From NCBI RefSeq assembly GCF_024345855.1, contig NZ_JAGQBX010000018.1, forward strand, positions 1 through 49,187: DNA of 49,187 bases, read 5' to 3'. Under the pieces are notes generated by a model. The model saw only the letters and a program-made list of their open reading frames with translations. It was not told where the DNA came from and made no database searches. Positions within the stretch are counted from its first letter, which is position 1; each line of letters starts with the position of its first letter. The position numbers and the translations under genes are program-made. Positions 3,185 to 5,909 of this stretch are shown one piece after another. This DNA is from Synechococcus sp. GreenBA-s. GTDB lineage: Bacteria; Cyanobacteriota; Cyanobacteriia; PCC-6307; Cyanobiaceae.

Positions 3185-3590
3185 GCCGGCGGCGGCCTCC
3201 TGGCTGGCGGGCCTGACCCCGCCGCCGCTCGGCCCGGAGCTGGGCCCCCTGCAGCTGGCCTGGCTCGGCGATGCCGTGTGGGAGCTGCACCAGCGGCTGC
3301 GCCGCTGCCGCCAGCCGGGCCGCAGCGCCGACCTGCACCGGGCGGTGGTTGCCGACGTGCGCGCCGATGCCCAGGCCGCCGCCCTTGAACGCCTGGAGCC
3401 GCTGCTGAGCGCCACGGAACTGGAGTGGGTGCGGCGCGGCCGCAACCGGGCCGGCCGCGGGCCGCGCCGTGGCGAGGCCGGTGTTTATGGCCGGGCCACG
3501 GGATTTGAGACAATGATTGGCTGGCTCTTTCTGCAGGATCCGAATCGGCTCGCGCAGCTGCTGGATCAACTCGAGGAGACGGACCCATAA
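3165..3590 (+). CDS. mrnC: Mini-ribonuclease III
   Basis: Mini-III is a dimeric RNase III catalytic domain without the double-stranded-RNA-binding domain. In Bacillus it matures 23S rRNA ends. The 141-residue length fits. The first signature is LQLAWLGDAVWELHQR, corresponding to the RNase III box with catalytic Asp, and the second is YGRATGFETMIGWLFL, with the acidic Glu of the active site. Translation probably starts at TTG 3165, inside the 3' end of the STAS gene. The short N-terminal stretch is Pro/Ala-rich. An rRNA methyltransferase gene follows immediately, consistent with a ribosome-biogenesis grouping. Confidence 0.9.
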   Translation: MAPSPPEPAAASWLAGLTPPPLGPELGPLQLAWLGDAVWELHQRLRRCRQPGRSADLHRAVVADVRADAQAAALERLEPLLSATELEWVRRGRNRAGRGPRRGEAGVYGRATGFETMIGWLFLQDPNRLAQLLDQLEETDP

Positions 3591-3610
3591 ACCCTTTGAC
3601 TGACAGAGAT

Positions 3611-5605
3611 ATGAGCCCTCGATTTGAACGCCGCGACCAGGGACAGGGATCGGGGGCCGGTGGCGATGCCCGCGGTGGCTACGGGGCTGGCGGTGGCTAT
3701 GGCGCCGGTGGCGGGCGCGGCGGCAAGGCCGGTCGCCCCGCCCGTCCGGCCTTCGGCGGCGGTGCGGGCAGCCGTGGTGGAGGCGGTGGCGCCCGCTTCG
3801 GCGGCGCCGGCCGCAGTGGCGGCTCCCGGCCCTTCGCCCCCCGCGGCGAGTGGCGGCCCGAGGGTGGCGAGCGTCCTGGCCGCCCCGAGGGGGATCGGCC
3901 CTCCCGCGGCCCCCGTCCCGAGGGTTCCCGCCCCGCGGGTCGCCGCTTCGACGCCCCCGCCGGTGGCTACGGCGCCGAGGGCCGCCCGGGCGCCGGCCGC
4001 AAGCCCTTCGGCCGTCGTCCGGACGACCGTCGCCCCGGGGGCGAGCGTCCCAGCGGCGGCCGCTTCGAGGGTGCCCGCTACGACGCGAACCGCTTTGAAG
4101 GCAAGCGCGGCGAGGGCGACCGCTTTGAGGGCAAGCGTCCCGACGCTCCGCGCTTCGGTGCCGGCCGGCCTGAGGGCAGGCGCTTCGAGGCCGGCCCTGG
4201 CCGCTTCGAGCGGGGAGGCCGGCCTGCGGGTGGCCGTTTCGGTGCTGGCCGCCCCGAGGGCGCTTCCTTCCAGCGCAGTTCCTTCAAACCCGCCCGCCCG
4301 CCCGGTCGCCCCGTGTTCGGCGCCCGCCCGGACCGCGGCCAGCCCGACGCCGCCGTGGCGGTGCCGGTGGGTGAATCCGAGCGCTTCAACGCCGGCCCCG
4401 CCGACGACCTGATCTGGGGGCGCCATGCCGCCCAGGCCGCCCTGGAGAGCGATCGGCCCATCCACCGCATCTGGTGCACCGCCGAGATGCGCTTCCAGCC
4501 CCGCTTCATGCAGCTGCTGCGCGAGGCCAAGGCCAGTGGCGTGCTGGTGGAGGAGGTCACCTGGGCCCGCCTGGGCCAGCTCACCGACGGCGCCGTGCAC
4601 CAGGGGATCGTGCTCCAGGCCGCCGCCGCCGACACCCTCGATCTGGGCACCCTGATCGATGGCTGCAAGGGCCTCGGCGAGCCGCCGCTGCTGATGGCCC
4701 TCGACGGCATCACCGACCCCCACAACCTGGGGGCGATCGTGCGCAGCGCCGAGGCCCTCGGCGCCCACGGCCTGGTGCTGCCCCAGCGCCGCAGCGCCGG
4801 CCTCACCGGCTCGGTGGCCAAGGTGGCCGCCGGTGCCCTGGAGCACCTGCCCGTGGCCCGGGTGGTGAACCTCAACCGCTCCCTGGAGACCCTCAAGCAG
4901 GAGGGCTACCGCGTGATCGGCCTGGCCGGCGAGGGTGCCGTTTCCCTCAGTGAGGCCGATCTGGACGGTCCGCTGGTGATCGTGACTGGATCGGAGGGCG
5001 ACGGCCTCTCGATGCTGACCCGCAAGCACTGCGACCAGCTGGTGCGGATCCCGCTGCGGGGCGCCACCCCCAGCCTCAACGCCTCGGTGGCCACGGCGAT
5101 GGTGCTCTATGAGGTGGCCCGCCGCGGCTGGATGAAGAACATCACCGGCTCCTCCCCGGCGCCGCGCATCGTGCGGCCCCAGCTGCCCACCAAGGCCCCG
5201 GCCGCCCCGGTGGAGCCGGAGGCTGAGGACGACGACACCGCCGTCCTGGCGGTTGAGGATGCCGCGCTGGATCAGGAGCTGCCGGAATCCCAGGCCGCAG
5301 CAGTCGAGGACGCACCCGCCGCGTCGCCGTCTGCCCCGGTCGAGCCGACGCCCCAGGCCCAGGTCACCGAGCCCGCCGACGCCACGGATCCCGCCGCCAC
5401 GGCTGCCGACGCCACGGATCCCGACGCCACGGATCCCGACGCCACGGATCCCGACGCCACAGCTGCCGCGGCTGAACCCGCTCCCGTCCCGGAGTCCGCT
5501 CCCGGCGCCGACGCCCCTGCCGCGGCTCCCCAGGCCGCCGCGGACTTCAGCCTGGGCCTGAACCCGGCGCTGGCCTCGGGCTTCTCGACAGACATCCAAC
5601 TCTGA
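3611..5605 (+). CDS. rlmB: TrmH/SpoU-family 23S rRNA 2'-O-methyltransferase with long disordered tails
   Basis: Predicted SAM-dependent methyltransferase, RlmB type, that 2'-O-methylates a guanosine of 23S rRNA. The catalytic unit occupies about residues 265-510 of 664: a substrate-binding domain (DDLIWGRHAAQAALE), then the knotted SPOUT motifs DGITDPHNLGAIVRSAE, GSEGDGLS and IPLRGATPSLNASVATAM. Residues 1-264 are an extreme Gly/Arg-rich tract and residues 511-664 an Ala/Pro/Asp-rich acidic tail with ATDPD repeats, so over half the protein lies outside the enzyme core. ATG 3611 was preferred to TTG 3596 because MSPRFERR resembles cyanobacterial relatives as I recall them. The exact target nucleotide is inferred from family only. 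Confidence 0.9.
   Translation: MSPRFERRDQGQGSGAGGDARGGYGAGGGYGAGGGRGGKAGRPARPAFGGGAGSRGGGGGARFGGAGRSGGSRPFAPRGEWRPEGGERPGRPEGDRPSRGPRPEGSRPAGRRFDAPAGGYGAEGRPGAGRKPFGRRPDDRRPGGERPSGGRFEGARYDANRFEGKRGEGDRFEGKRPDAPRFGAGRPEGRRFEAGPGRFERGGRPAGGRFGAGRPEGASFQRSSFKPARPPGRPVFGARPDRGQPDAAVAVPVGESERFNAGPADDLIWGRHAAQAALESDRPIHRIWCTAEMRFQPRFMQLLREAKASGVLVEEVTWARLGQLTDGAVHQGIVLQAAAADTLDLGTLIDGCKGLGEPPLLMALDGITDPHNLGAIVRSAEALGAHGLVLPQRRSAGLTGSVAKVAAGALEHLPVARVVNLNRSLETLKQEGYRVIGLAGEGAVSLSEADLDGPLVIVTGSEGDGLSMLTRKHCDQLVRIPLRGATPSLNASVATAMVLYEVARRGWMKNITGSSPAPRIVRPQLPTKAPAAPVEPEAEDDDTAVLAVEDAALDQELPESQAAAVEDAPAASPSAPVEPTPQAQVTEPADATDPAATAADATDPDATDPDATDPDATAAAAEPAPVPESAPGADAPAAAPQAAADFSLGLNPALASGFSTDIQL
5381..5455 (+). 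repeat. 15-bp tandem repeat encoding ATDPD units
   Basis: Five contiguous 15-bp units based on GCCACGGATCCCGAC. Units at 5411, 5426 and 5441 are identical and those at 5381 and 5396 are degenerate. A partial unit follows at 5456. The repeat keeps the reading frame and builds the acidic tail of the methyltransferase, so copy number could change without disrupting the gene. Confidence 0.9.
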
Positions 5606-5639
5606 CGAGCGCGGGCCAACGGCCCCAGCCCTGGGCACA

Positions 5640-5909
5640 ATGGGTCCATCTCCACCAGCCCTGATGACTTCGCTGCTCTGGCCCCTCCGGAGTCTTGCCA
5701 ACGGCCTGGGGCTGGCCTGGTGGGCCCGGATCGAGACCCGCGATCCGGATGTGACCTACTGGTTCGGCCCCTACGTGCGCCGTGACCAGCTCGAGCAGGC
5801 CCTGCCGGCCTTCCTCGCCGACCTGCGCAGCGAGGCCCCCGGCTCGCTGCAGCACGAGGTGCTGCGCACCCGCCGCGGCGAACCGCTCACGATCCCCGCC
5901 CAGCCCTGA
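5640..5909 (+). CDS. DUF1816-like small protein
   Basis: Protein of 89 residues, or 81 if ATG 5664 is the true start. The core GLAWWARIETRDPDVTYWFGPYVRRDQLEQALPAFLADLRSE is broken here into its parts: GLAWWARIET, YWFGPYVRR and a following helix. It resembles the cyanobacterial DUF1816 family, found near phycobilisome and stress genes in other strains. No catalytic residues are apparent. It sits between the rRNA methyltransferase and gatA, 55 bases before gatA. Function unknown; the family assignment is from remembered motif resemblance. Confidence 0.7.
   Translation: MGPSPPALMTSLLWPLRSLANGLGLAWWARIETRDPDVTYWFGPYVRRDQLEQALPAFLADLRSEAPGSLQHEVLRTRRGEPLTIPAQP

Follow-up and report, generated by a model that had tools for sequence, protein, structure and literature searches.

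The gene at positions 3611 to 5605 of the forward strand encodes an RlmB-type 2'-O-methyltransferase of 664 amino acids with a disordered head and a disordered tail. It lies in the window, the whole stretch of 49,187 nucleotides that was analyzed. The tail ends in a short conserved tip, FSTDIQL, followed directly by the stop codon (5582 to 5605, +). The tip consensus is F-x-x-D-I-x-L, and in what was sampled it is restricted to one cyanobacterial family. The tail and tip together appear to be a family-specific addition to RlmB. Our best reading, to which we give a probability of about 0.55, is that the protein combines a basic RNA-binding head with a flexible acidic tether that ends in a private docking peptide. 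That the head binds RNA and that the tip docks are inferences, as is the nature of the partner.

The frame runs from ATG to TGA. Bounding the core by tblastn splits it into a head of 266 residues, a core of 243, and a tail of 155. The preliminary description had limited the enzyme to the SPOUT part, with lengths of 264, 246, and 154, and the measured split is close to it. The core contains a SpoU_sub_bind (L30e-like RNA-binding) domain (PF08032; amino acids 267 to 340; 4409 to 4630, +) and a SPOUT catalytic domain (PF00588; amino acids 360 to 500; 4688 to 5110, +), both over their cutoffs. The SPOUT domain carries the catalytic SpoU motifs NLGAIVR, GSEGDGL, and PLRGATPSLNASVA; all three lie in the core. 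The protein scored 215.3 bits against TIGR00186 (RlmB, equivalog; cutoff, 160.15) over amino acids 266 to 504, and its L30e-like to SPOUT order is the one expected for that model. A second RlmB model, NF008386, gave 206.1 bits, under its cutoff of 366. NF008117, presumably YfiF (PRK10864), gave 90.3 bits, far under its cutoff of 267. The best solved relative was the Escherichia coli structure 1gz0 (E value, 7e-52; amino acids 265 to 505). From its family, the product is inferred to be RlmB, the 23S rRNA Gm2251 2'-O-methyltransferase. This rRNA methyltransferase is very widespread, and the enzyme part of the protein here is ordinary.

The RlmB frame is real over its entire length, as judged by codon-level constraint. 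In eight hand-picked pairs of relatives, dN/dS was 0.00 to 0.04 for the core, 0.06 to 0.23 for the head, and 0.14 to 1.4 for the tail, with few sites behind the comparison. Constraint fell from core to head to tail in all eight pairs. A 711-codon open frame lies antisense to rlmB (3566 to 5701, -). We attributed it to high GC3 (0.94) and did not count it as a gene. An artifact origin of the RlmB frame, with the 711-codon antisense frame or a shorter overlapping frame as the gene, was rejected because the constraint follows the RlmB frame.

We sought rlmB in three sets of genomes. It was matched in 59 of 60 relatives, with two genomes (G010 and G035) giving paralogue-level scores only; in 183 of 201 family genomes at an E value of 1e-60 or better; and in 145 of 146 phylum genomes at 1e-45 or better. 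The sequences compared were 94 family loci, two more (L255 and L256), and 51 loci from other Cyanobacteriia with duplicates removed. Four of the 94 family loci had no 3' end, which left 90, or 92 with the two additions. There were 80 named loci, 76 of them with a 3' end. Three duplicates (L143, L147, and L149) and a sister-class locus (L146) were kept out of the 51-member outside set. The 30 class loci were the best-scoring ones and not an even draw, and part of the family loci and the sister loci were chosen by hand. Correlations with GC3 and with charge were computed without correction for shared ancestry.

The best-matching named locus came from Vulcanococcus limneticus LL (L153), with a core 99% identical. 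The genus is therefore probably Vulcanococcus, and the genus name is used below in that provisional sense. Among the 80 named loci, the label is Vulcanococcus for four and Synechococcus or Cyanobium for most of the others. One contig titled as a Bifidobacterium breve MAG (L208) bears a picocyanobacterial rlmB and is probably a mislabeled or contaminated bin. Composition was compared within a sample made up of the window and a further 400 kb of this genome. This sample held 298 proteins, 288 of them with at least 100 residues, predicted by a simple codon-usage script and not by a gene finder. RlmB ranked first of 288 for Gly plus Arg per 100 amino acids (57; the next had 38) and second for net negative charge per 100 amino acids (-27; the first had -34). 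It alone had both a Gly-plus-Arg window of at least 40 and a charge window of -15 or lower.

The head (amino acids 1 to 266; 3611 to 4408, +) has a net charge of +23 and contains 27% Gly, 18% Arg, and 8% aromatic residues. The preliminary description had called it Gly/Arg rich with scattered aromatics, and this holds. The head begins MSPRFERR. Of 90 family heads, 58 match the pattern MS....RR, and a single shuffled set gave 0 of 90. Net charge is positive in every one of the 88 complete family heads (+12 to +27), which are 97 to 333 residues long. The 47 complete heads from other Cyanobacteriia all have at least 30 residues; 46 are net positive, and one is neutral. Basic heads are thus widespread in Cyanobacteriia and are a common cyanobacterial trait, not special to this genome. 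Ten sister-class heads comprised six of 17 residues or fewer, one of 67 residues with no net charge, and three basic ones of 111 to 148 residues. An eleventh (L146) has 24 residues and a net charge of -1.

The head had also been likened to RNA-binding and phase-separating RGG regions. Its basic and disordered nature stood, but the RGG character did not. In family heads the Gly content rises with GC3 (rho, 0.70; P = 2e-14), whereas Lys plus Arg does not follow it (rho, -0.08). RGG repeats are not a conserved feature of the orthologues; at least three occur in 14 of the 88 complete family heads. The head here has four. At least three occur in 2 of 51 complete class rows, a group that includes the three duplicates and the sister-class locus named above. 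The heads of AT-rich relatives are Asn/Ser rich. Since Gly tracks GC3, Lys plus Arg does not, and RGG is rare, the conserved property of the head appears to be its positive charge and not RGG character. The head may be better described as a basic, disordered, putative RNA-holding arm than as an RGG domain. Positions 4055 to 4132 hold a degenerate 15-bp tandem repeat with units of the GRFEG/DRFEG type. RPF-x-PRG-[ED]-W occurs in this head and in that of a cyanobacterium of another family (L045), and it is possibly a second short motif.

The tail has 155 residues and a net charge of -26. It consists of a proximal element, a linker, and the tip. The proximal element, NITGSSPAPRIVRPQLP, lies at 5138 to 5188 (+). 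Its pattern, G-x-x-P-[AST]-P-x-x-x-R, was found in 87 of 90 family tails and in 0 of 22 other cyanobacteria. The linker (5189 to 5581, +) is acidic, Ala/Pro rich, and fast evolving, and in family tails it is barely alignable. It contains a 15-bp tandem repeat (5376 to 5460, +; 5.7 copies, 91% matches) that encodes an ATDPD run. The preliminary description had reported an acidic tail with ATDPD repeats. The acidity and the repeats are there, but ATDPD was absent from all 91 other family tails checked, including that of the closest relative (L007; core 99% identical). Among 92 family tails, only that of this strain has the repeat, and ATDPD was therefore rejected as a functional unit. By eye, the genus seemed to share a further conserved element ahead of the tip; this too was rejected, since it was found in only 36 of 121 tails and in 14 of 22 within the genus.

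The tail has at least 40 residues in 83 of 92 family members and is missing or shorter in 9. Outside the family it has at most 34 residues in all 47 complete sequences from other Cyanobacteriia. The preliminary description had proposed comparing tails among relatives. Within the genus, 22 loci have an intact 3' end (L006 to L028, without L023), and all of them keep the tail and the tip. The loss of tails in close relatives, which that description had named as a refuting result, was thus not seen.

The tip pattern was written after inspection of the sequences. In the form F-x-x-[DNS]-[IV]-x-L, at or within five residues of the C terminus, it was found in 68 of 92 family members. These are 68 of the 83 with tails of at least 40 residues, and the tip is present in 63 of the 69 with tails of at least 70. 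Shuffling the same family tails gave an expectation of 0.02, against 68 of 90 observed. The pattern was not found elsewhere in the same family proteins (49,565 amino acids). It was found in 0 of 22 other Cyanobacteriia and in 0 of 51 once that set had been enlarged. Among named relatives with an intact 3' end it was present in 75 of 76, a sample biased because these are the best matches to a tail-containing query. The cultured strain Synechococcus sp. WH 5701 (L215) is one of those that have it. Across 121 distinct tip-bearing tails, F is conserved in 95%, D in 81%, I in 89%, and L in 99%, values partly fixed by the search pattern. The 16 positions ahead of the tip in these tails carry 0.7 to 1.4 bits. 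The tip is mostly hydrophobic, with F, I, and L and one D. It is a short conserved peptide within a fast-evolving disordered segment. Two or five residues follow it in 10 of the 121 tails, so a free C terminus is not needed.

On the core tree the family forms one clade (support, 0.858). A strict or loose tip requires 11 parsimony changes on this tree, against a mean of 47.7 and a minimum of 35 in 200 shuffles. This fits a tip that was gained early and lost several times. The tip is kept in eight AT-rich members (GC3, 0.27 to 0.38) with quite different codon use. It is lacking in 24 of 92 members by the strict pattern and in 17 by the looser one, so RlmB evidently works without it. Twelve of the 17 are AT rich (GC3 of 0.31 or lower), and five are not.

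A C-terminal DNA pattern for F..DI.L was searched in 25 genus genomes. It occurred once in 23 and was absent from 2, and a backwards control pattern gave eight matches in the same 25. Of the 23 single matches, 22 coincide with rlmB. The other (G009:C137:4299-4322) has no rlmB core that we found; the gene there is probably broken by contig ends. In one of the two genomes without the pattern, rlmB runs off the contig (G017), and in the other no close rlmB was found (G010). In the genome studied here, the C-terminal DNA pattern F..[DN]I.L has a single occurrence. With S, T, C, or one of a few more residues in place of D or N at position 4, and Ile or Val at position 5, there was a single match, and its last codon is TGG instead of a stop codon. 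A general degron or shared hub signal was rejected, given the single occurrence here and at most one occurrence of the D-only pattern per genome in the 25 genus genomes.

Both ends of the protein look disordered, as the preliminary description had expected. By the charge-hydropathy rule the head falls clearly on the disordered side and the core on the folded side. The tail falls only just on the disordered side (0.469; boundary, 0.474). We made two AlphaFold2 monomer models from shallow alignments, both poor (mean pLDDT, 54.1 and 45.2). In the full-length model (mean, 45.2) the head and tail are almost without secondary structure, with pLDDT of about 33 to 46. In the first model (mean, 54.1) the last block has a pLDDT of 59 and a short helix, the two preceding blocks have 41 to 42, and those further up have 45 to 52. 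In the second the last block has a pLDDT of 39 and no helix.

Directly upstream of rlmB, by 20 bp, lies a gene for Mini-III with an RNase III domain (PF00636; 3165 to 3590, +). Of the 89 family loci with room for it, 82 have Mini-III directly upstream and in the same orientation. In the remaining family loci it overlaps the guessed rlmB start in six and was not found in one. Outside the family it is upstream in 17 of 20. Downstream lies a gene for a DUF1816 protein (PF08846; 5640 to 5909, +), which follows rlmB in all 90 family loci with room and in 15 of 22 elsewhere. The order Mini-III, rlmB, DUF1816 is conserved in the family and less so elsewhere. The DUF1816 gene is followed by an amidase and a long frame, which we take to be GatA and DnaE. 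To our knowledge, the timing of RlmB in 50S assembly is poorly understood. Mini-III matures 23S rRNA in Synechococcus PCC 7002 (PMC10989914). As its gene adjoins rlmB, a link of RlmB to late 50S maturation would be plausible.

In the reading we prefer, the basic disordered head would be a general-purpose extension for holding RNA and would raise the affinity for pre-23S rRNA. The tail, acidic and flexible, would act as a spacer whose length and sequence vary. Its role would be to present the F-x-x-D-I-x-L peptide at the very end, and this tip would dock RlmB onto one specific partner. The partner would most likely be a ribosome-maturation factor or the assembling 50S subunit. Docking motifs typically show up in this way, as a short conserved peptide that is private to one group and sits at the end of a tether that evolves quickly, and the RlmB tip would on that ground be one. 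The preliminary description had suggested tethering to pre-ribosomes or RNA condensates. The tethering idea gains support from the conserved C-terminal peptide, which that description lacked. Overall its observation is confirmed, and its interpretation is partly supported.

A more specific version is tentative at best. Here the tip of the picocyanobacteria (Synechococcus, Cyanobium, and Vulcanococcus) would recruit RlmB to one dedicated receptor, such as Mini-III or a pre-50S protein. This would couple P-loop methylation to maturation of the 23S rRNA ends, and the tip would later have been lost in some streamlined AT-rich members.

It is doubtful that the acidic tail instead imitates a nucleic acid, folding back on the basic head or on the L30e-like domain, competing with RNA, and so tuning binding and release. 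The opposite net charges of head (+23) and tail (-26) fit such a role. In E. coli Hfq, the acidic tip and RNA compete for basic residues of the core (PMC5606850). Head and tail charge also correlate (rho, -0.46) over all 86 family members, a set that includes short tails and in which head length is uncorrected. Among the 69 with tails of at least 60 residues there is no correlation (rho, -0.18; P = 0.15). Tail charge follows GC3 (rho, -0.76), the conserved tip is mostly hydrophobic with no acidic run, and other cyanobacteria have basic heads without such tails.

Docking in cis, in which the tip packs on its own dimer or the partner subunit and stabilizes or gates the enzyme, seems unlikely. 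Neither of the two monomer models places the tip with confidence, though their quality is too low for this to weigh much. The idea draws on a short hydrophobic x-L-x-L-like stretch that 34 of the 47 other Cyanobacteriia have right after the core and that could be an ancestral form of the tip; this is a loose post hoc pattern with no chance control. Four distinct family tails (in a group that includes L082, L086, L184, and L204) read DVDLGSL and resemble TLSLGSL of L049. Homology with these other short ends is only putative. The acidic linker may have been inserted before an old C-terminal strand.

The chances are also low that the linker is a nearly neutral, GC-driven expansion without a function of its own. 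In its favor, tail dN/dS is 0.14 to 1.4, and the ATDPD expansion is private to one strain. In family tails, GC3 goes with both length (rho, 0.75) and charge (rho, -0.76), neither corrected for ancestry. This explanation covers the middle of the tail only, and both tail ends are conserved. It may be compatible with the docking tip.

Least probable is that the ends form RNA condensates through RGG-like phase separation and opposite-charge self-association: the low-complexity Gly/Arg/aromatic head is extreme within the genome sample, but its RGG content is not conserved, Gly follows GC3, the heads of AT-rich relatives have the other composition noted above, and head and tail charges do not covary among long tails. 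The self-association that the preliminary description drew from opposite charge thus found no backing; 46 of 47 heads from other Cyanobacteriia are basic without an acidic tail.

The preferred reading, a docking tip on a flexible tether, is directly testable. The seven-residue peptide is family wide, occurs once per genus genome, and is cleanly removable, so recruitment of RlmB can be addressed by taking it away. The tip may lead to a ribosome-maturation partner in ecologically important picocyanobacteria.

The C-terminal ends of SSB and FtsZ have the same layout: the linker is long and variable, and the conserved tip is amphipathic, with an acidic residue just ahead of Ile. The SSB tip ends in Ile-Pro-Phe with a free C terminus. 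The RlmB tip lacks this ending; it ends in x-Leu, whereas the SSB tip ends in Pro-Phe, and it tolerates two to five extra residues. This genome has two matches to the SSB domain, and one of them lies in a frame (L254) that ends in a typical tip, GDDEIPF, after a Pro/Ala/Gly linker.

E. coli RlmB (1GZ0) has the same L30e-like and SPOUT order, and the protein here has 266 extra residues before it and 155 after it. In the table of a SPOUT review, RlmB is classed as NTD-SPOUT, and no C-terminal extension is listed for it (PMC9508554). An L30e-SPOUT enzyme likewise has a basic disordered extension ahead of the enzyme, and that report describes the extension as lacking in other members (PMC1829167). 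Unlike that enzyme, as far as it is described there, the protein here is RlmB proper and has an acidic tail with a tip. We recognized no description of cyanobacterial RlmB extensions in the open-licence literature, judged from the starts of abstracts. Hfq, too, is a basic RNA protein whose tail is acidic and disordered (PMC5606850); its tip is an acidic run, whereas the conserved RlmB tip is mostly hydrophobic. Cyanobacterial RNase E holds PNPase by a conserved peptide on a disordered region (PMC10989914). That region is Arg rich, whereas the RlmB tip, F-x-x-D-I-x-L, has no Arg requirement. In its layout the RNase E nonapeptide for PNPase docking is like the RlmB tip, a conserved short C-terminal peptide with a variable disordered region (PMC10989914).
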